64,000 bases of DNA. Origin: Acidimicrobiia bacterium (GTDB lineage Bacteria > Actinomycetota > Acidimicrobiia > Acidimicrobiales > AC-14). Under the pieces are notes generated by a model that worked only from the letters and a program-made list of their open reading frames with translations, made no database searches and was not told the DNA's origin. The stretch spans positions 1 to 64,000 of the forward strand of contig JAHFUP010000011.1 in NCBI GenBank assembly GCA_023265025.1, given 5' to 3'. Both the position numbers and the translations under genes were made by a program. Positions 49,267-63,347 of this stretch are shown piece by piece (position 1 is the stretch's first letter; every line of letters starts with the position of its first letter).

Positions 49267-52158
49267 CTAGGAGGACCGAGCCGCGAAAGCGATGAGCTCG
49301 GACCGCATCCGCACGCCGGCCTTGACCGTGAGGTTGGCGATGTGGCGTTCGACGGTCCGCGGTGAAAGGTAGAGCCGTTCGGCGATCTCGCGGTTGGGTA
49401 ACCCCTCGGCCAGGAGGGTGAGCACCTCGGATTCACGCGCCGTCACCCCGAGGCGGCGCAGACCGGTCGGGATGCCCGACGTGTTCCCCCGGCGGGGAAC
49501 GGGCGCCCCGGCGCGGCGCAGCAGCGAGCGGCACGCGGCAGCGATCTCGTCGTGGCCGTGGTCCTCGAAGACCGGGAGAGCGTTCTGCATCCACTCCGCC
49601 GGCTCTCCCCAGCCGTCGGCGATGGCCGCGTCGGCGACGAGGCGGCGGCCGAAGTGGCGGTGCCAGGCGATCGGGGCCAGCGCAGCGTCGCCGGAGGCAA
49701 ACGCCTCCTCGGCCTGCACCCTTTGACCGGTGCGTCCGAGGAGGACGGCGTCGGCCAGGTGGAGGTAGCCGCGAATGAGGAAGTTCACGGTCACGCCTGA
49801 CGCCCGCACCTCGGCGCACGCCGCCGCCCCGTCCATGTCCTCGACCGCTCGCAGGAGCGCCCAGAGCGCCCTGCCGATGACCACCGGCGCGGTTGCCAGG
49901 CTGCGGAAGTACTGCATCGCGGTGTCGAGCTCCTGCATTGCCCGCCGGCGGTTCTCCTGGATGAGCGAGTTCCGGGCACGGACATGAGCCCAGACCATCG
50001 CACACACCTCGGGATCGTCTCCCCGGAGCGCGAACGCCTGCTGGAGCTGCTTCTCCATGTCGTCGCGCCGCCCCAACCGGGCCAGCCCGTCCGCTTCGAA
50101 GATCAGCGACATCGCCAGCAGTTGTTGCATCCCGAACTTGCGAGCTGTGTCTCCGCAACGTCGCGCCGCTTCAACCACTTTGTCGCCATCGAGCCGCATC
50201 GCGTACCAGCCCCCGATGTAGAGATCCACCTGGGCGGCGACGGCTAGGGCGCCGGTCGCAAGGGCGGCCTCTCGGGCGGCCAAGAGCCGGTCCACCTCCC
50301 GACCGGCTAGAACGTCCAGCGTTCCCAGCTCGAACAGGCCCCGGACGCGCCACAGGCCGAGTCCGTGCTCCGTCGCGACATCAAGAGCTCGGGCGAAAGC
50401 CGCCTCCGCCCGGTCGAGGTCGGTGAGACGCTCGGCTCGTCCCACCACCTCCAGCGCCTCGCAGGCGACTTCAGGGAGGCCAGCGCGCTCGGCCACGTCC
50501 AGCGCCGAGCGCGCTGCGGCGGCGGCCCTCTTCGGGTCATCTCTGCCCATGAGGACGTGCGCGCCGATCGCCTCGGCGCATGCCGTGAGGGATTTGTCGG
50601 GACCAGCGAGCGCGGAAGCACGAGCGAGGTGGGTATCGGCGACGTCCCAATGGCATGCGGCAGCGGCCACTCTTGCCAGGCGCAGGTGCACCTGGCAGAG
50701 CCTTTCCGTCGGACCCGACGCGGACTGAAGCTGGGCCACCACCTCGCTCCCAACCTCCAGGGCACGGTCGACCTTGCCTGCCGATGACAGCGTCTCGCTC
50801 AGCGCGTCCTTCACGTCGAGGGCGAGCTCGGGGCTGTCGGCCGCCGCCGCCAGCGCGCTCTCCAACGTCGTCTCCGCCGTGGCCAGCGCCCCACGAGCCA
50901 GCGAACGCCGGCCCGCCTGCAGGAGAAGCGCGGCGGCGCGGCCACGGTCGCCCGCCTGGTCGGCGAGTTGTGCAGCCAGATCGCACCAGTCGCCCTCGAG
51001 CTCCGGGTGTGACCCTTCGACGGCGGTCAGGGCGGACCGGGCCAGGAGGGCTCGCTCGCCCGGCAGCAGCTGGCCGACGACGGCGTCGCGGGTGAGCGCG
51101 TGGCGAAATCGGAACGAGCCGGACCCTCGTTGCTCGCACACGAGCAGCTGCGCCGCCGTGGCCCGCCCGAGCGCGGCCACGATCTCCTGCTCACTCAGCT
51201 CCGTCATGCTCGGAAGGAGCGTCCAGTCGAACCGTCTACCGAGGACGGCGGCCGCGACAAGCGCGGCGCGAGCCGTCGGACCCAGGGTGCCGAGGCGCTC
51301 GACCACGGTGGCGACGAAGGTCCGGGGAACGGCTGGCTCGAATCCGGACTTCACCGTCCATCCTTGATCGGCCTGGACGACGACGCCGGCCCCAGCCGCG
51401 CCTGCGAGCAGCTCCTCGACGAGGAACGGCAGCCCGTCGCAACATTCCTGGAGGATCGCATCGAACTCTCGGGGAAGGCTGGCCAGGTCGAGGCAGGCCC
51501 GAGCCATCGCCGATACTGCGGAGCCCGAGAGGGGTGACAATTCGATGGCGGACGCGGCACGCCGGGCGGTGAGGCTGGCGGCCACCCCAAACGCCGAGCT
51601 GGACTCCTCGGACCGGAGGGTGCACAAGCAGGCGACCGGCTCGGACACGAGGTTGTCCGTGAGGTACTCGAGGACGGCCATGGTGTCGGGATCTGCCCAA
51701 TGAAGGTCTTCGAGCACGAGCAGGCAGCCGTGCGCACGGCCGAGGACGCGGAGGACCCGCAGCACAGCCTCGGCGAGGAGCACGATCGACTCGTCCGCCC
51801 GCTCACTGGTATTCCCCCGCCACTCAGGCACGAGGCGGGCCATGATCGGTCTGAAGGGCTCGAGTTCTGGATCTTCGGGTGGTCCTGTGTCCCGGAACTG
51901 CGAGAGGAGCGCCTCGGTCAGTGGACGGAAGGCCACTTGGCTGGCTGAGGGTGTGGCGCGACCCCAGAGGACGCTGAACTGGCGACGGCGCGCCATGTCG
52001 AGCGCTTCTCGGGCGAGCCGGGACTTGCCGACACCTGCCTCACCGATCAAGAAGAGGGTCCTGCCGCGGCGCTCCTCGGCAACGGCGGTCACGGCGGCGT
52101 GGAGCTCGCTGACCTCACTGCTGCGGCCCACGAGCACAGGGCAGAGCACCGATGGCAT
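49267..52158 (-). CDS. LuxR-type ATPase transcriptional regulator (LAL family)
   Basis: The 963-residue protein has an N-terminal AAA ATPase with Walker A GEAGVGKS (residues 40-47) and Walker B LLVLEDLHWAD, a long TPR-like helical middle, and a C-terminal LuxR helix-turn-helix (LTARESEVLTLLAEGLPNRE, SPRTVERHIANL). This is the MalT/LAL layout, which activates transcription on binding a ligand and ATP. ATG 52158 is the first start that precedes the ATPase. It is 124 bp upstream of the intradiol dioxygenase gene on the same strand, making that operon its likely target. Confidence 0.9.
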   Translation of the reverse strand: MPSVLCPVLVGRSSEVSELHAAVTAVAEERRGRTLFLIGEAGVGKSRLAREALDMARRRQFSVLWGRATPSASQVAFRPLTEALLSQFRDTGPPEDPELEPFRPIMARLVPEWRGNTSERADESIVLLAEAVLRVLRVLGRAHGCLLVLEDLHWADPDTMAVLEYLTDNLVSEPVACLCTLRSEESSSAFGVAASLTARRAASAIELSPLSGSAVSAMARACLDLASLPREFDAILQECCDGLPFLVEELLAGAAGAGVVVQADQGWTVKSGFEPAVPRTFVATVVERLGTLGPTARAALVAAAVLGRRFDWTLLPSMTELSEQEIVAALGRATAAQLLVCEQRGSGSFRFRHALTRDAVVGQLLPGERALLARSALTAVEGSHPELEGDWCDLAAQLADQAGDRGRAAALLLQAGRRSLARGALATAETTLESALAAAADSPELALDVKDALSETLSSAGKVDRALEVGSEVVAQLQSASGPTERLCQVHLRLARVAAAACHWDVADTHLARASALAGPDKSLTACAEAIGAHVLMGRDDPKRAAAAARSALDVAERAGLPEVACEALEVVGRAERLTDLDRAEAAFARALDVATEHGLGLWRVRGLFELGTLDVLAGREVDRLLAAREAALATGALAVAAQVDLYIGGWYAMRLDGDKVVEAARRCGDTARKFGMQQLLAMSLIFEADGLARLGRRDDMEKQLQQAFALRGDDPEVCAMVWAHVRARNSLIQENRRRAMQELDTAMQYFRSLATAPVVIGRALWALLRAVEDMDGAAACAEVRASGVTVNFLIRGYLHLADAVLLGRTGQRVQAEEAFASGDAALAPIAWHRHFGRRLVADAAIADGWGEPAEWMQNALPVFEDHGHDEIAAACRSLLRRAGAPVPRRGNTSGIPTGLRRLGVTARESEVLTLLAEGLPNREIAERLYLSPRTVERHIANLTVKAGVRMRSELIAFAARSS

Positions 52159-52360
52159 CGCACGAGTATCGCGGCAACTGAAGCGGCGTGCAGGCTTCGG
52201 CCGTACCGGGCCAGGCGCCCGAACCGCCGGCCGAGGACGACATCCGACGCCCAACCTTCACGAGGTGGAAGGCATCGGCGCACACCACGCTGCCTCTGGA
52301 CGGGATCAGAGGTCTTGGATCTCGGCCCGGCCTTCCTCACGCGCGTGACCGCCGAGGGCC

Positions 52361-52852: not shown

Positions 52853-52948
52853 ATGGCCACAGAATCGCAGCATCAGGCGACGCCTGAGGCTCTTGACGCG
52901 TCGTCCCCAGCGGAACAGCGGACCGCATTTGAGCGGACCCCGCGATGA
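52853..52948 (+). CDS. 31-residue peptide preceding the RiPP nucleotidyltransferase
   Basis: An ATG at 52853 behind ACGGAGGC opens a 31-residue hydrophilic frame (begins MATESQHQATPEALDASS, ends RTAFERTPR) whose TGA overlaps the nucleotidyltransferase ATG as ATGA. It has no Cys and no YxxPxLxxxG leader motif, so I do not call it a lasso precursor. It could be a coupling frame or the relic of a precursor. Confidence 0.42.
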   Translation: MATESQHQATPEALDASSPAEQRTAFERTPR

Positions 52949-53913
52949 CGCCGTGGGCCGGCGCCTCCGCTCATACCGTGGACGCGAGACGCCTCACGGC
53001 CCTCGCCCTCGGGACCGATCGCGTCGCCGGTGAGGTCGTCGGGGCCTTCCAAGGAGCCGGCGTGCGCGCTGTGCTCCTGAAAGGAGCGGCCATCTCGACG
53101 TGGCTCTACGGCGACGGCGCGCCGCGCGGCTACAACGACGTCGACCTCTTGGTGGCACCCGATCGGTGGCCCGCCGCGGAAGCCGTGCTTCGCGACCTCG
53201 GCTTCGACCTCGCGATGCCTGGGACATCGCCACTGGAGGAGGCGCCGCATGCCAGGGCATGGGCGCGGGGCGCAGAGGTCGTTGACCTCCACCACACAGT
53301 CTGGGGCGTGGGCGTCCCGCCGGCCCGAGCCTGGGAGCTCCTGTCAGCGGAGACCCAGACGCTGGCGCTCGGCGGCGGGCACGTAGAGGTGCTCGACTTC
53401 CCCGCCCGCGCCCTCCACGTCGCGCTGCACGCCGCCCACAACGGCGCTGGCGGGCGCGGGCGGAAGTCGCTCCGGGACCTTGCCCGCGCCGCTGATCGGG
53501 TGCCGGTCGACGTCTGGCGGCAGGCCGCGTCGCTCGCCCGCGACCTTGACGCGGACGGCGCCATGGCCGTGGGGCTCCGGCTGCACCCCGCGACGGCACA
53601 TCTGGCCGACACGCTCTCGCTGCCCAGCCGGGCGCCGGTGGCCGTCACGCTGCAGTCCACCGGCGCCCCGACGTTGGCTGTCGGCCTACTGATCGCAGCC
53701 CGCGCCCCGGGCGTGAAGGCAAAGGTTGCGACGGCGGCGCGCCGGATCGTCCCGACGCCCGCCTGCATGCGGGCCCGCTACCCGATCGCGGCGAGAGGTT
53801 GGCCGGGGATGGCCATCGCGCACGTTCTTCGCTGGGCGTCCCTCGCCCGCCAGGTCCCGGCCTCGGTGCTGGCCATCGGCCGGGCCCTCTGGTCACGGGC
53901 CCGATGGGCGTGA
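52945..53913 (+). CDS. Nucleotidyltransferase-family protein of a lasso-type RiPP cluster
   Basis: The 322-residue protein matches the NTP_transf_5 family: VLLKGAAISTWLYGDGAPRGYNDVDLLV (the NDVDLLV strand holds the two metal-binding aspartates) and EVVDLHHTVWG (third acidic strand). Members recur in lasso-peptide clusters that also encode an HPr-kinase-like protein, and are thought to modify the peptide, though most are uncharacterised. ATG 52945 overlaps the small upstream frame. Its C-terminus is basic and hydrophobic. Confidence 0.8.
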   Translation: MTPWAGASAHTVDARRLTALALGTDRVAGEVVGAFQGAGVRAVLLKGAAISTWLYGDGAPRGYNDVDLLVAPDRWPAAEAVLRDLGFDLAMPGTSPLEEAPHARAWARGAEVVDLHHTVWGVGVPPARAWELLSAETQTLALGGGHVEVLDFPARALHVALHAAHNGAGGRGRKSLRDLARAADRVPVDVWRQAASLARDLDADGAMAVGLRLHPATAHLADTLSLPSRAPVAVTLQSTGAPTLAVGLLIAARAPGVKAKVATAARRIVPTPACMRARYPIAARGWPGMAIAHVLRWASLARQVPASVLAIGRALWSRARWA

Positions 53914-54075
53914 CCCCCGGGCGGTGGCCGCTTGGCGATCGTCGGTTGCAAGCTCTACAACGTTCAACCGGAAGAGTCGTCCGCACCCTGTCAACCGTCC
54001 CAACATCCCGTCGCCATCCGCTGCTCGAGATGTGAGCACGGTCTGCGGCGTGGTCCACCGCGCCCGCGACCCATC
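53910..54075 (+). pseudogene. Remnant of a second PqqD/cyclase junction
   Basis: A GTG overlapping the nucleotidyltransferase stop opens a 41-residue frame ending LLEM-stop. At 54021-54064 the DNA matches 56643-56686, the junction where the intact PqqD-like gene (ending GLLEM-stop) overlaps the cyclase start (GTGAGC... CTGCGGCGTGGTCCAC). After GTG 54032 the cyclase-like start VSTVCGVVHRARD is followed by unrelated sequence. So a second copy of the B1/cyclase pair once lay here and was deleted. Confidence 0.7.
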
Positions 54076-54194
54076 GACGCCACCCTCTCGCTCTGCTGGA
54101 CACGCCCCGCTGCTTTCGGCCCCGGCGTGGGTGGGGTCTGCACCAGTTGCGGCGGGGCTCGTTCACCGGCACAAGGTGGGCCTATCCTCCGCGC

Positions 54195-54560
54195 ATGCGT
54201 TGCCCCTCACCGGCCGAGGCCCGGGCCGCGCTCTGGACGGTTCGTGCCGTGGTGCAGGCCCGACGCGAGGCGCGGCGGACTCCGATCGACCGCATTCGGC
54301 TGTCGCCGCCGCCGGCCCTGCCCGACGAGGCGATCGTCGGCGTGGCTGGCGTCCTCCGTCGCTGGCCGCAGACGTGCCTGATCCAGGCCCTCGTCTGCCA
54401 GCGCTGGTACGCGTCCCACGGGCGGCCGCGAGATCTCGTCATCGGCGTGACCATGCCGAGCGCTGGCTTCCGCGCCCACGCCTGGCTGGTCGACGACGAC
54501 CGCTGCCATCGCGGAGAGTTCACCGAGCTGCTGCGCAGCCCGGCGCCATCGAGCGCCTGA
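54195..54560 (+). CDS. Lasso peptide biosynthesis B2 protein (leader peptidase)
   Basis: The 121-residue protein has the transglutaminase-like cysteine protease pattern of lasso B2 proteins: WPQTCLIQALVCQRWYASHG with the nucleophile Cys61, then LVIGVTMPSAGFRAHAWLVDD with His95. B2 removes the leader peptide from the precursor after recognition by B1, just before ring closure by the cyclase. The ATG at 54195 is chosen from the family length. It converges with the kinase gene at 54567, separated by 6 bases. Confidence 0.87.
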   Translation: MRCPSPAEARAALWTVRAVVQARREARRTPIDRIRLSPPPALPDEAIVGVAGVLRRWPQTCLIQALVCQRWYASHGRPRDLVIGVTMPSAGFRAHAWLVDDDRCHRGEFTELLRSPAPSSA

Positions 54561-54566
54561 CGCGGC

Positions 54567-55430
54567 TTACGCGATCGCCGCCGCCGCCAGCGTGACGAGC
54601 AGCAGGCCCGTGGCCGCCTCGAAGGTGTCCCAACGCTGGGGTCGGATCAGCTCCCATGCCGGCAGGGTGGCCAAGTCGAGCATCACCTCGCCGTGGGCCT
54701 TGCAATACGGAAGCGACCGGGCGCCCATGAGTCGCCGGAGCCGCTCGTCGATGGCCAAGGGCGTAATGCCGAGGTCGTAACCCCACACTAGGTGCACGAA
54801 GCCGCCGAGAGGAGCTTGCCCGCGCGTCGGGGGCAGGTTGACGCGGTCGCGCGTGTCGGCGCGCGCCCGTTCCGTCGGCTCGCGCAGCCCGAGGCGGGCG
54901 CGGACGCCGTCGCGCAGGTCGACACACCGCGGTCCTGCGAATGCGCTCTTACCGTCGACGACGAGGACGTCATCGACGAAGACCTCGTGGCCGGCGGCCA
55001 GCAGCGCACCCGCCAAGGTGCTCTTTCCCTGCTCCCTTTTCCCCACCAGGCCCCATGCCCGCCCTCCGAGCACGACGCCCGCAGCGTGGACCGCCTCCCT
55101 CCCGGCCCAGTGCGCGAAAAGGGCGGCGGGAAGAGCCAAGTACGGGTGGGCCAGGGAGCGGGTGTCGAGAACCTCGACACTCGAGATCTCCACCCGGCGC
55201 CGAGGCCTGTCGACGTGCACCTGCACCGACTCATACCCAGCGGTGGCGCCCTGCTCGTGGAACGAGATCCGAATGTTGACGACCCGCGGCGTCGTCAGGG
55301 CAACCTCGACGGGATACCAGTCGTCTGCGCCGTAGAGGGCGAGCGTCGGCGACGGGTCGAGGCCGACGAACCGCAGCCCGTAGGCGGCACCCTGGGTCGC
55401 CTTGCTGGCGTCGATTCCCAAGGTTTCCAC
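54567..55430 (-). CDS. HPr-kinase-like protein of a lasso-type RiPP cluster
   Basis: The 287-residue protein has a P-loop of HPr(Ser) kinase type, WGLVGKREQGKSTLAGALLAAG (about residue 128), followed by FVDDVLVVDG, as in the kinases of phosphorylated lasso-peptide clusters such as that of paeninodin, where the kinase modifies the C-terminal Ser of the precursor. An alternative is a serine-kinase-like regulator. GTG 55430 is divergent from the first precursor copy with 73 bp between. Confidence 0.75.
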   Translation of the reverse strand: METLGIDASKATQGAAYGLRFVGLDPSPTLALYGADDWYPVEVALTTPRVVNIRISFHEQGATAGYESVQVHVDRPRRRVEISSVEVLDTRSLAHPYLALPAALFAHWAGREAVHAAGVVLGGRAWGLVGKREQGKSTLAGALLAAGHEVFVDDVLVVDGKSAFAGPRCVDLRDGVRARLGLREPTERARADTRDRVNLPPTRGQAPLGGFVHLVWGYDLGITPLAIDERLRRLMGARSLPYCKAHGEVMLDLATLPAWELIRPQRWDTFEAATGLLLVTLAAAAIA

Positions 55431-55503: not shown

Positions 55504-55913
55504 ATGCCGGAGGAGCCCGTGCCCCGGATGGCGCGTGTCTAGAGCCCCCGGCCCTCGTATGGCTCGGCCGTCTGGCCGATCGCACGGCCGCGGGTCTGGG
55601 CATTGGTGGGGACATGCAGGATGGACCAGACGTCAGCCCATCGGACCGCGCCCTCAAGGAGGTTTTCACTCCGGTTGACACCGCCGACGTCCTCGCCGGC
55701 GTTGTCGGCCTGCCCATCGAGCGCTGGCGCTACCGCGGCGACGGCGCCCCCCACATCGGGCCGATGGCCCAGGACTTCGCCGCCGCCTTCGGCGTGGGCG
55801 ACGACGACCGCGTCATCCACAACGTCGACGCCTCGGGCGTGGCCTTGGCCGCCATCCAGGCCTTAGCCGCGGAAGTGTCCGAGCTGCGTGCGCAGCTGAA
55901 GCGTCTGTCGTGA
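55504..55913 (+). pseudogene. Lasso leader/Peptidase_S74 fusion precursor, copy 1 (frameshifted)
   Basis: ATG 55504 follows a strong GGAGGG and starts MPEEPVPRMARV, then hits TAG at 55540 exactly where copy 2 has the leader Tyr codon (TAC). One missing base between 55541 and 55542 restores (Y)EPPALVWLGRLADRT, a good lasso leader motif. Next come core residues AAGLGIGGDMQDGPDVSP, where the second Ala is position 1 and Asp is position 8, and from 55641 SDRALKEVF and the full S74 domain to 55913. The S74 part is very similar to copy 2. The frame starting at 55614 is therefore only the tail of this gene. It could be an inactive copy or a sequencing error. Confidence 0.72.
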
Positions 55914-55980
55914 TCGGCACTGCCGCACGAGACCGCGGCGGCTAGTCTCGACCGACCTCTGCGTGTGTCGAGGAGGAGCG

Positions 55981-56403
55981 ATGCCGGACGAGTCTGCCCC
56001 AAGGGAGTCGAGCGCCAACGAGGCGCGTGACTACGAGCCTCCGTCCCTGGTCTGGCTGGGCCCGCTGGTCGATCTCACGCGCTTTGGTGGCACCGTCGAC
56101 GCGGACGGTGTCACACAGGCCGACAGCCCATCGGACCGCGCTCTCAAGGAGGACTTCGGCCCGGTTGACACCGCCGACGTCCTCGCCGGCGTTGTCAAGA
56201 TGCCCATCGAGCGGTGGCGGTACCGCGGCGACCGCGCCACCCACATCGGGCCGATGGCCCAGGACTTCGCCGCCGTCTTCGGCGTGGGCGGCGACGACCG
56301 TGTCATCCACAACCTCGACGCCTCCGGTGTGGCCTTGGCCGCCATCCAGGCCCTGGCCGCCGAGGTGTCCGAGCTGCGCGCGCAGCTGAAGCGGCTGTCG
56401 TGA
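55981..56403 (+). CDS. Lasso leader/Peptidase_S74 fusion precursor, copy 2
   Basis: ATG 55981 follows GAGGAGGAG. Residues 18-33 are YEPPSLVWLGPLVDLT, the lasso leader signature YxxPxLxxxGxxxxLT. If Thr33 is at -2, the core runs from Phe35 to about Pro50 with Asp42 at position 8, a possible 8-residue isopeptide ring. Residues 51-140 (SDRALKEDF, HIGPMAQDFAAVFG, ASGVALAAIQALAAEVSELRAQ) match the Peptidase_S74 chaperone domain of phage tail spikes, which trimerises and cleaves itself at its N-terminal Ser. The stop overlaps the PqqD-like gene (GTGA). Domain calls are firm; the maturation route is inference. Confidence 0.8.
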   Translation: MPDESAPRESSANEARDYEPPSLVWLGPLVDLTRFGGTVDADGVTQADSPSDRALKEDFGPVDTADVLAGVVKMPIERWRYRGDRATHIGPMAQDFAAVFGVGGDDRVIHNLDASGVALAAIQALAAEVSELRAQLKRLS

Positions 56404-56657
56404 TCCGGCTCAACGCCAGATCGGTGGCGTGGCGCGGCGTCAATGGCGAGGTCGTCGGCCTGTCCATCGAAGACAGCGAGTACTTCACCACGAACGAGAC
56501 GGCCACCGAGCTGTGGCCGTTGCTGGCGGAGGGGACGACCGAGGACAACCTGGCCGCCCGGATCGTCGATCGCTACGGCATCGACACGGTGACCGCCAGC
56601 ACGGACGTGCGCGCCTTCCTCGGCACGCTCGCCGATCGGGGTTTGCTCGAGATGTGA
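56400..56657 (+). CDS. PqqD-like/lasso B1 leader-binding protein
   Basis: The 85-residue protein has the PqqD fold pattern (VAWRGVNGEVVGLSIEDSEYFTTNETATELWPLLAEGTTEDNLAARIVDRYGI, then DVRAFLGTLADRGLLEM), a RiPP recognition element that binds the YxxP region of the leader and delivers it to the B2 protease. GTG 56400 overlaps the precursor stop, and its own TGA overlaps the cyclase GTG, so precursor, B1 and cyclase are translated as one coupled unit. Confidence 0.88.
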   Translation: MIRLNARSVAWRGVNGEVVGLSIEDSEYFTTNETATELWPLLAEGTTEDNLAARIVDRYGIDTVTASTDVRAFLGTLADRGLLEM

Positions 56658-58597
56658 GCGCCATCTGCGGCGTGGTCCACTGCGCCGGGCGACCCGTCGA
56701 CACCGTCGTTTTCGCGTCGGTCCTCGACACGCTTCGTGGCTTGGGCCCTGACGGCGGCGGTACCTGGTCGGGGCCCGCCGGCCACTGCGACGTGGCGATA
56801 GGCGCCGCCCTGCGCATCCGGACGCCCGAGGACGGCAACGACCGCCAGCCCCTCGTGAGCGACGACGGCAGCCTCGTCATGGTCGCCGACGCCCGCCTCG
56901 ACAACCGGCTCGACCTGCTCCCGGCGCTAAGCGTGGAATCGACCGAGCCCGACAGCCGTCTCATCGCCGCGACGTACGAGCGATGGGGCCGGGCGTGTGT
57001 CGAACGACTCGTCGGCGTCTTCGCCTTCGCCCTCGTCGACCGCCGGAGAGGGGGTGTCCTCCTCGCCCGCGACCACATCGGGAGTCGTCCGCTCGTGACA
57101 TACGAGGGCAACGGCATCGTCGCATTCGCCTCCACCGCGCTGGCCCTGACCGCCCTACCCGCGGTGGGCCATGATCTCGACGAGCAGTGGGTGCGGGAGA
57201 TCCTCGCCCTGACCTACTCGGACCGAACCTACGTCGACGGCGTGCGTTGGGTGCCCCCAGGCCACGCCGTGTGGATCGACGCCGACGGCGTGCGCCGGTG
57301 GGCGTGGTGGGACCCCGATCCCGAGCACGTTGTCGACCGCGGCGGCCCTGAGGCCCATGCCGCCCGCCTGCGGAACGCCTTCGACGAAGCTGTCGCCGGT
57401 CAGCTGCACGGCGCGGGGACGGTCGGCGCCTTCGTGAGCGGGGGACTCGACTCACCGTCGGTGGCGGCCACCGTGGCAGGCCAGATCGCCCCCCGACGCC
57501 TGCGCACGTACACGTCAGCGCCGCCACCGGAGTGGGACGGACCGACACCTCCCAACTGGGACGCCGACGAGTCGGCGCTCGTGCGCGACCTCGCGGCGCG
57601 CTACCCCAACATGGAGCCGACCTTTCTTCACGTGCCCGCGGCGCCGCTGTTCGACGGCCGCTATGAACGCTACTGGGCGCTCGGCGCCGGCCCGCCGCGC
57701 AACCCGTGCAACATGCTGTGGACCGATGCCATCTACGAGCAGGCGGCGGCGGACGGCGTGGCGGCCGTTTTCTGCGGGGACCTCGGCAATCTGGCGTTCA
57801 GCGCCGACGGACCGGACTGGCTGGTGGCCTTGCTGCGGCGGGGGCAGCTCGGCGAGGTGGCACGCGAGGCCCTGGCCTTCCGGGCGCACAAGCCCTTGGC
57901 GTCGACGCTCAGGGGCGACCTCCTCGGCCGCTTCCAGCCGTCGTGGCTCCGGCAGGCACGGACACGTCGTGGCTTGCGAGCCGACATCCAGCAGGACTGG
58001 CTGTCCGCCACGGCGCTTCAGCCACAGCTGCACTCAACGGTCGACCTGGTGGCGGCCATGCCACAACTGGACGTCGGCCGTCCTGTCTCCGCACGGGTGT
58101 CGCTGTTCGCCATGCGGGCTGTCGTCGCCGGGCAAGCCGACCTGATGGCCGCCACGCAAGCCGTGTGGCGCGTCGACCGCCGAGACCCGACGGCGGACCG
58201 ACGGGTGCTCGACGTGGCCATGACCCAGCCGGAATGGGTGCGCCGCCGCCGGGGCGTGAACCGAGCGGCGGCTCGGGAAGCCATGCGCGATCGGCTGCCC
58301 CCCTCCATCCTGTGGCGAACGCGGCGGGGTTCGCAGCTGCCCGACTGGCTGGACCACATGAGCAAAGCGCGCGCCGAGATCGAGGCCGAGCTCGACGCCC
58401 TCCGGGACCATCCGATGTCGCGGCGTGTGATCGACGTGGAGCGGCTCACCGCCCTCGTCCGCCAGTGGCCCCAGCCGGCGCACGCCGCCGACACCCGCAC
58501 GGTGTACGACTACCGGTTCGCCCTCCTGCGCGCCCTGGTGGTCAGCCGCTACCTCCGCTGGTTCGAAGAGCACGCCCGCCAGAAGCGCACGCCGTAG
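56654..58597 (+). CDS. Asparagine-synthetase-like lasso cyclase
   Basis: The 647-residue protein has an N-terminal class-II glutamine-amidotransferase-like domain (SAICGVVHCAG, Cys at position 5, then ADARLDNR, RDHIGSRPL) and a C-terminal synthetase domain with the ATP-pyrophosphatase loop SGGLDS (residues 262-267). In lasso clusters this enzyme adenylates the Asp/Glu side chain and closes the ring on the new N-terminus. The Cys is internal rather than second, as in other lasso cyclases, so glutaminase activity is doubtful. GTG 56654 overlaps the B1 stop. Confidence 0.9.
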   Translation: MSAICGVVHCAGRPVDTVVFASVLDTLRGLGPDGGGTWSGPAGHCDVAIGAALRIRTPEDGNDRQPLVSDDGSLVMVADARLDNRLDLLPALSVESTEPDSRLIAATYERWGRACVERLVGVFAFALVDRRRGGVLLARDHIGSRPLVTYEGNGIVAFASTALALTALPAVGHDLDEQWVREILALTYSDRTYVDGVRWVPPGHAVWIDADGVRRWAWWDPDPEHVVDRGGPEAHAARLRNAFDEAVAGQLHGAGTVGAFVSGGLDSPSVAATVAGQIAPRRLRTYTSAPPPEWDGPTPPNWDADESALVRDLAARYPNMEPTFLHVPAAPLFDGRYERYWALGAGPPRNPCNMLWTDAIYEQAAADGVAAVFCGDLGNLAFSADGPDWLVALLRRGQLGEVAREALAFRAHKPLASTLRGDLLGRFQPSWLRQARTRRGLRADIQQDWLSATALQPQLHSTVDLVAAMPQLDVGRPVSARVSLFAMRAVVAGQADLMAATQAVWRVDRRDPTADRRVLDVAMTQPEWVRRRRGVNRAAAREAMRDRLPPSILWRTRRGSQLPDWLDHMSKARAEIEAELDALRDHPMSRRVIDVERLTALVRQWPQPAHAADTRTVYDYRFALLRALVVSRYLRWFEEHARQKRTP

Positions 58598-62818: not shown

Positions 62819-63115
62819 ATGGCTCGACACAGTCTCAGCAAGCTGTCCGCGGCGGTCGCCGCATCCGCTCTCCTCGCGCTGGGCCTGGGAACTGGCCCCG
62901 CTCACGCACAGCAGGCGAGCACCGGGCGCTACGTCCTGCAGCTACAGGGCTACACCTGCACGAGGTTTGTCGGCACCGACGCCTGGGTTTGTACCAAGCC
63001 TGGCGCGCCGACCTACGACTGCGTCGGCTATGTGTGCCAACCGGTGGTCTCCACCCTCGTCGCCGCACCGTACGCGGCGCCGGCGAACCAGCCACCCGTC
63101 GCCACTGCCCCCTAG
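62819..63115 (+). CDS. Small secreted protein with four cysteines
   Basis: The 98-residue protein has a signal peptide (LSKLSAAVAASALLALGLGTGPAHA) and a mature part with YTCTRFVGTDAWVCTKPG and YDCVGYVCQPV, four cysteines, then a Pro/Ala-rich tail. ATG 62819 has GGAAGG about 10 bases upstream. The TAG stop lies inside the first bases of repeat copy B, and the tail-coding sequence is duplicated on the far side of that repeat. Function unknown. Confidence 0.7.
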   Translation: MARHSLSKLSAAVAASALLALGLGTGPAHAQQASTGRYVLQLQGYTCTRFVGTDAWVCTKPGAPTYDCVGYVCQPVVSTLVAAPYAAPANQPPVATAP

Positions 63116-63303
63116 CGTGTCGACCTCATTCGTTCGCTTCGCTCACCCCATTCGGTCGAAGTGATCGTGCTCCGGCGGGCGGGCGGAGCTCGCGCCGCCT
63201 CCGCCCTGTCCCTCCCTGTCCGCAGCCGGAGGGGCCGCCTGCGGCGGCGACGGCGGCCACGGACTGGAACCCCACGAACGTGGCGAACGTCTGCGGTCAG
63301 GGC
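63108..63303. repeat. 195-bp dispersed non-coding repeat, copy B
   Basis: This segment matches copy A (37830-38024) from CCCCCTAG through GGTCAGGGC, with short indels near the middle. It contains GCGGGC-GGA-GCTCGC and GCCGCC-TGC-GGCGGC hairpins. It starts inside the last codons of the small secreted-protein gene and ends about 160 bp before the second TolB-like gene. Unlike copy A it is not between convergent genes. Confidence 0.85.
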
Positions 63304-63347
63304 GCCGGCCAACCAGCCACCCGTCGCCACTGCGCTCTATCGTGTCG
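63302..63347. repeat. Direct repeat flanking copy B
   Basis: GCGCCGGCCAACCAGCCACC and what follows to GTGTCG repeat 63077-63122 with about four mismatches in 46 bases. The left copy encodes the end of the secreted protein (PANQPPVATAP-stop). The two copies bracket repeat copy B, as a target duplication or an unequal crossover would leave. Confidence 0.8.

Follow-up and report, generated by a model that had tools for sequence, protein, structure and literature searches.

The window, the whole 64-kb stretch of DNA analysed here, belongs to a 5.45-Mb draft genome of 185 contigs and carries a set of lasso peptide genes (Table 1) in which the predicted precursor continues past its core into a Peptidase_S74 domain. 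Judged by sequence, the locus is a genuine lasso cluster that holds a real fusion under constraint, while its chemistry is predicted. Of the neighbouring genes named in the original prediction, B1, cyclase, B2 and nucleotidyltransferase were recognised by Pfam and NCBIfam profiles, and the kinase gave a weak HprK-like match (E 2e-4). B1 and cyclase reached NCBIfam family membership and missed the exception-level cut-offs. The Cys, His and Asp residues of B2 are visible in TCLIQAL, HAWL and DDDR; homologues of the kinase adjoin B1/B2 in the related clusters L063, L064, L066 and L069. No transporter was recognised adjoining the cluster, and no close homologue of the cyclase was found at E 1e-40 in 395 genomes of the class.

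Table 1. Features of the lasso peptide locus, with positions counted in the 64-kb window
Feature	Position	Strand	Evidence
NTP_transf_5 nucleotidyltransferase	52945-53913	+	PF14907 E 9.9e-26
B1-end/cyclase-start junction remnant, 60 bp	54022-54081	+	87% identity to 56644-56704; just upstream of B2
B2 leader protease, transglutaminase-like	54147-54560	+	NF033537 43 bits (cut-off 33); PF13471 E 5.8e-13
HprK-like kinase	54567-55430	-	weak match TIGR04352 E 2.1e-4; Walker A GKREQGKST visible
Precursor 1 (frameshifted tandem sister)	55504-55914	+	S74 frame intact; PF13884 E 5e-9 over 55614-55913
Precursor 2 (intact fusion, 140 aa)	55981-56403	+	open frame, GC3 0.87; PF13884 E 6.7e-11; NF033521 16 bits
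Lasso leader signature YEPPSLVWLGPLVDLT	56032-56079	+	exact Y..P.L...G.....T match
Peptidase_S74 domain, precursor 2	56131-56400	+	SDRALK dyad S51/K56; GPMAQDF; C-terminal coiled-coil helix
B1, PqqD-type RRE	56400-56657	+	PF05402 E 4.7e-17; TbiB1 5v1u E 7.8e-8; NF033530 43 bits
Lasso cyclase, asparagine-synthetase-like	56654-58597	+	NF033535 E 1.8e-72; PF00733 E 1.4e-26; SGGLDS PPi loop

The stop codon of precursor 2 overlaps the GTG start of B1 in the tetranucleotide GTGA, and the stop codon of B1 overlaps the GTG start of the cyclase in the same way. Because of these overlaps we consider that a tightly coupled lasso operon begins with precursor 2. An identical GTGATC stands at the end of precursor 1, and a few codons of a would-be B1 come after it, so the tandem duplication must have extended into B1. 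The junction remnant upstream of B2 is a sign that the cluster was duplicated earlier.

A gene for a large AAA_16/LuxR-type regulator (49267-52254, minus strand) adjoins the cluster and is a possible controller. A 47-bp direct repeat with 91% identity (63076-63122 and 63301-63347) was seen at 63076-63347. Two further B2 loci in the same genome, L047 (G000:C86) and L061 (G000:C163), probably mark more lasso clusters; no precursors were identified at them by motif.

It had been predicted that two tandem genes each encode an exact lasso leader, a short core and an S74 domain. Both genes are present and one is frameshifted; the exact signature holds for the second copy only, because in precursor 1 the motif is in frame only after its Tyr. 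Precursor 2 has an ATG start with the ribosome site GAGGAG and reads MPDESAPRESSANEARD-YEPPSLVWLGPLVDLT-R, then the core FGGTVDADGVTQADSP, then SDRALKEDFG...LKRLS; its parts are a leader (residues 1-34, with the signature at 18-33), a predicted core (F35-P50) and the S74 domain (S51-S140). Precursor 1 starts with ATG and the ribosome site AAGGAGG. Its frameshift is located around 55537-55541, with a TAG stop at 55540 in the starting frame; past this site a single open frame, EPPALVWLGRLADRTA...KRLS, continues to the end of the gene. From the residue after the frameshift the order is EPPALVWLGRLADRT-A, core AGLGIGGDMQDGPDVSP, then SDRALKEVF....

Across all six frames of the window the leader motif occurs once, against 0.05 occurrences expected from simulation. 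By profile, the predicted lasso leader comes close without passing: the curated model NF033521 scored the precursor just below its cut-off of 19 bits (E 0.009). Because the penultimate residue of a lasso leader is by rule a Thr, the core of precursor 2 was taken to start at F35. The predicted cores have 16 residues (copy 2) and 17 residues (copy 1), both with Asp at position 8 as counted from the residue after T-x. The related short precursors L049, L063 and L065 likewise have Asp8, with cores of 17-19 residues, a length that the segments before S51 fit. Phe is unusual as the first core residue of a lasso peptide, and predicted core 2 would begin with Phe.

The original prediction of a complete S74-like domain was borne out by profile and by fold. 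PF13884 scores of the two copies, 42.8 and 36.8 bits, are significant (gathering cut-off 22), and these fused copies are the only S74 matches in the whole genome. The profile spans the first half of the domain; the remainder, DRVIHNLDASGVALAAIQALAAEVSELRAQLKRL, corresponds to the C-terminal helix seen in other S74 domains. In the AlphaFold model, for which the input was 54 homologous rows (53 of them viral), pLDDT was 92-99 from residue 51 on and <50 for residues 1-34. The best structural neighbours of the model were four solved ICA domains, MYRF 7dc3, K1F 3gw6, T5 4uw8 and GA-1 3gud, with MYRF giving Z 7.2 and rmsd 1.7 Å over 81 residues against Z ≤2.5 for unrelated rows. A profile search of PDB sequences returned 3gud, 8jov and 7dc3; phmmer with the single precursor gave no match in the PDB. 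Ser51 and Lys56 fall on the positions of the Ser-Lys dyad (Ser-x4-Lys) in the alignment, are equivalent in numbering to MYRF S587/K592, and match in 48 of 49 and 53 of 53 homologues, respectively, that have a residue there. Pro50-Ser51 is placed identically in both copies. No triple beta-helix precedes the domain, as just 50 residues, the first 34 of them poorly modelled, stand before the cleavage Ser; an obvious oxyanion Arg as in T5/K1F is absent from the precursor.

The domain had been described as a phage one. While its S74 identity was confirmed, its closest relatives are compact bacterial and viral domains. When 68 S74 domains were placed in a tree, both copies from the window fell into a supported group (98/88) made up of all sampled bacterial S74 domains and some viral ones; within it the tree resolved neither closer kin nor a donor, and the copies grouped with no phage lineage. 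On this placement the domain is of the compact bacterial/viral S74 type, with relatives in bacterial proteins and viral contigs.

Other small S74 proteins were encountered along the way of this comparison. Those of L073, L074, L076, L154, L015, L016, L081 and L082 form a supported group (96/95) without the catalytic dyad, drawn from genomes of the phylum and from Streptomyces and Rhodococcus plasmids. On a Streptomyces plasmid (L015:7495-8396) the S74 region is apparently divided between two ORFs that overlap, the upstream one stopping shortly past SDRGLKTDV and the next restarting with the remaining domain. In two further genomes from the phylum, a small S74 protein without SDRxLK adjoins a gene for an M50-type membrane protease-like protein (L070:7251-9009, minus strand; L077:6783-9770, plus strand). 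These proteases share 31% identity over 413 residues and, by eye, an apparent PqqD-type N-terminus; the M50 profile match of the L070 protease is below the cut-off. Tandem small basic ORFs with RVNRRW..RSDQRIKR repeats (L070:8991-9530, minus strand) are located upstream of the small S74 gene.

The tandem copies are 83% identical in DNA and were compared codon by codon (Nei-Gojobori). We observed dN 0.14, dS 0.52 and dN/dS 0.27 in the leader, and dN 0.06, dS 0.24 and dN/dS 0.26 in the S74 domain, with conservation between copies at its strongest in the coiled-coil half (dN/dS 0.07). In the core dN was 1.08 and dS 1.02 (ratio 1.05), a dN figure to be read as 'saturated' and no more because the core alignment is loose, the pair is single and sites are treated as independent. 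In tests on this one sequence pair, with sites likewise taken as independent, nonsynonymous change in S74 was lower than synonymous change (p=0.0016), and nonsynonymous change in the core was higher than that in S74 (p=8e-13) and higher than the pooled synonymous rate of leader and S74 (p=3e-4). The constraint on S74 is, if anything, understated, because any drift after the frameshift would push ratios towards 1. We read from these rates that leader and S74 domain are under purifying selection and the core is scrambled, which is the RiPP pattern of a leader, a variable core and a conserved follower. This selection profile is our best evidence for S74 as a maintained follower. Thus, the proposed RiPP precursor with an S74 follower is backed by significant domain scores, by operon coupling to B1 and cyclase and by the way leader, core and follower have evolved, while self-cleavage and chaperoning are inferred from the dyad, the fold and the position of the site.

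Mining for further leader and S74 fusions, an idea that came with the original prediction, yielded none, either in about 1,300 genomes by protein query (overlapping sets of 148 relatives, 395 class, 396 phylum and 397 order genomes) or in 84,980 genomes by a stricter pattern. The pattern required T mid-codon at S74 position 55 and GPM/GPV, and because of these demands its estimated sensitivity for divergent S74 domains is only about 40%. Its single match, L017, was rejected as a glycosidase on inspection, and the same pattern gave zero matches in viral contigs. In these genome sets, and likewise in plasmids, phages and viral contigs, all matches to the precursor were S74 domains lacking a lasso leader, matches in phage records being limited to the S74 domain. 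Matches over nearly the whole precursor on Roseovarius and Tateyamaria plasmids were rejected as well; they are the ends of 400-residue S74 proteins adjoining type II secretion genes, with no lasso genes. In the open literature, a scope that leaves subscription papers and preprints largely outside, we found no report joining lasso with S74 or endosialidase, in agreement with the earlier statement that no description of such a fusion was known to its author. Lasso clusters with B1, B2, kinase and nucleotidyltransferase are common in the order; the precursors of these related clusters are of the ordinary short kind. A lasso precursor normally consists of leader and core, its C-terminus being set by the stop codon.

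Paeninodin/pseudomycoidin-type clusters combine separate B1 and B2, a cyclase, an HprK-like kinase and an NTP_transf_5 protein (PMC9266682), and the enzyme set here is of this type. Precursors of the paeninodin type end at the core, with a phosphorylated C-terminal Ser, whereas here a 90-residue S74 domain comes after the core. With the S74/ICA domains of K1F endosialidase, T5 pb1, the GA-1 appendage and animal MYRF the precursor has in common the fold, the Ser-Lys dyad and the C-terminal coiled-coil helix, 7dc3 being the closest structure. Unlike these systems it has no tentacle insertion, and its passenger is a 50-residue disordered leader and core instead of a triple beta-helix fibre or a transcription factor.

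It is known that in phage fibres the cut requires an Arg from the correctly folded upstream triple beta-helix (PMC4690869). Activation of the phage type cannot apply here because both that helix and an obvious oxyanion Arg are missing. In MYRF the same dyad cuts between P586 and S587, in a trimer-dependent manner and with no trigger from an upstream stalk (PMC8326128). By analogy, the predicted cut P50|S51 is at the same P|S bond, and the cores left by it would be of lasso size.

The fusion, the operon coupling, the dyad and the selection pattern are seen in the sequence and the fold in the model; trimerisation, autoproteolysis and lasso formation of the precursor we infer. We give about an even chance to a lasso cluster whose precursor has as its follower an S74 domain, an autocleaving intramolecular chaperone, all biochemical steps being predictions. 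B1 would bind the leader and present it to B2, which would cut after R34 (Thr33 at -2). The cyclase would link the new N-terminus F35 to Asp42, making an 8-residue ring around the tail. S74 would fold at once, trimerise via its C-terminal helix and hold three precursors; bulky as it is, at the tail end it may stop the tail from slipping during ring closure. Ser51/Lys56 of the trimer would then cut P50|S51 in the manner of MYRF, and the lasso peptide set free would have a defined C-terminus and 16 residues (copy 2) or 17 (copy 1 if intact). The kinase and nucleotidyltransferase may afterwards decorate the lasso peptide; their presence suggests phosphorylation and glycosylation by analogy with pseudomycoidin (PMC9266682). 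Candidates for the modified Ser are S49, S51 and C-terminal S140: the core ends in ...DSP|S and the precursor in ...KRLS, and the kinase has only weak HprK matches.

In its specific form, a self-excising trimeric follower that would fold, bring three precursors together as a trimer, protect the tail in ring closure and cut itself off to set the C-terminus, the mechanism is tentative, its probability falling somewhat short of even. We favour a self-releasing follower because no stalk is present here and the MYRF cut needs none, because Pro50-Ser51 is found in both copies, and because the cores have 16 and 17 residues. Counted against such a follower are the missing upstream helix and oxyanion Arg, the occurrence in one genome with no orthologous fusion found, the frameshifted sister copy, the sub-cut-off NF033521 score, the Phe start of the core and a copy comparison based on a single sequence pair.

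It is considerably less probable that S74 stays attached, in which case a stable S74 trimer would present three lasso rings as a protein-tethered product and no free peptide. We rank such permanent display second because engineered fusions show that a fusion to the tail permits maturation: according to a review (PMC8498205, covering Zong et al. 2016), GFP or a leucine zipper fused at the C-terminus is tolerated by engineered lasso peptides. In these astexin-1 or pandonodin fusions a protein is carried on the lasso tail, as here; they are laboratory constructs, whereas the precursor here is natural, with a potential self-release site at the junction. Display would also agree with the strong conservation of the coiled-coil half and with the absence of the stalk that triggers autoproteolysis in phages. 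Still, both copies have kept an intact catalytic dyad, which other small S74 proteins of the phylum have lost.

Rather unlikely, and ranked below display, is a lineage-specific accident: through recombination or read-through an ordinary lasso precursor would have become linked with an S74 gene already resident in the genome, and the domain would be tolerated, and trimmed by general proteases, in a decaying locus. The lack of orthologues, the frameshift in one copy and the past rearrangement evident from the junction remnant are in line with such an event. An accident, however, does not sit well with nonsynonymous change in S74 well below synonymous change, or with the survival of the reading frame in both copies.

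We consider it improbable that there is no lasso precursor at all, and that an S74 protein with a leader-like N-terminus merely recruits B1. The leader score just below the cut-off would allow such a protein, but the exact motif is unique in the window, Asp8 is present in both cores, GTGA overlaps couple the gene to B1 and cyclase, and hypervariability is specific to the core. An assembly chimera of two unrelated genes, conceivable in a 185-contig draft with one broken copy, is hardly credible given two diverged tandem copies with the same junction and the same GTGA context at their ends.

The fusion is of high interest, weakened by its being known from one genome with one broken copy. If the self-releasing follower is real, a folded and potentially self-releasing domain would be a new way of setting the tail end of a lasso peptide, and it would perhaps keep the tail in place while threading, a step that is poorly understood, goes on. 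The precursor would then be a natural counterpart of engineered lasso fusions that has its release site built in, and S74 chaperones would extend past fibres and MYRF into small-peptide biosynthesis. RiPP mining restricted to short precursors can miss those annotated as 'tail fiber domain' proteins.
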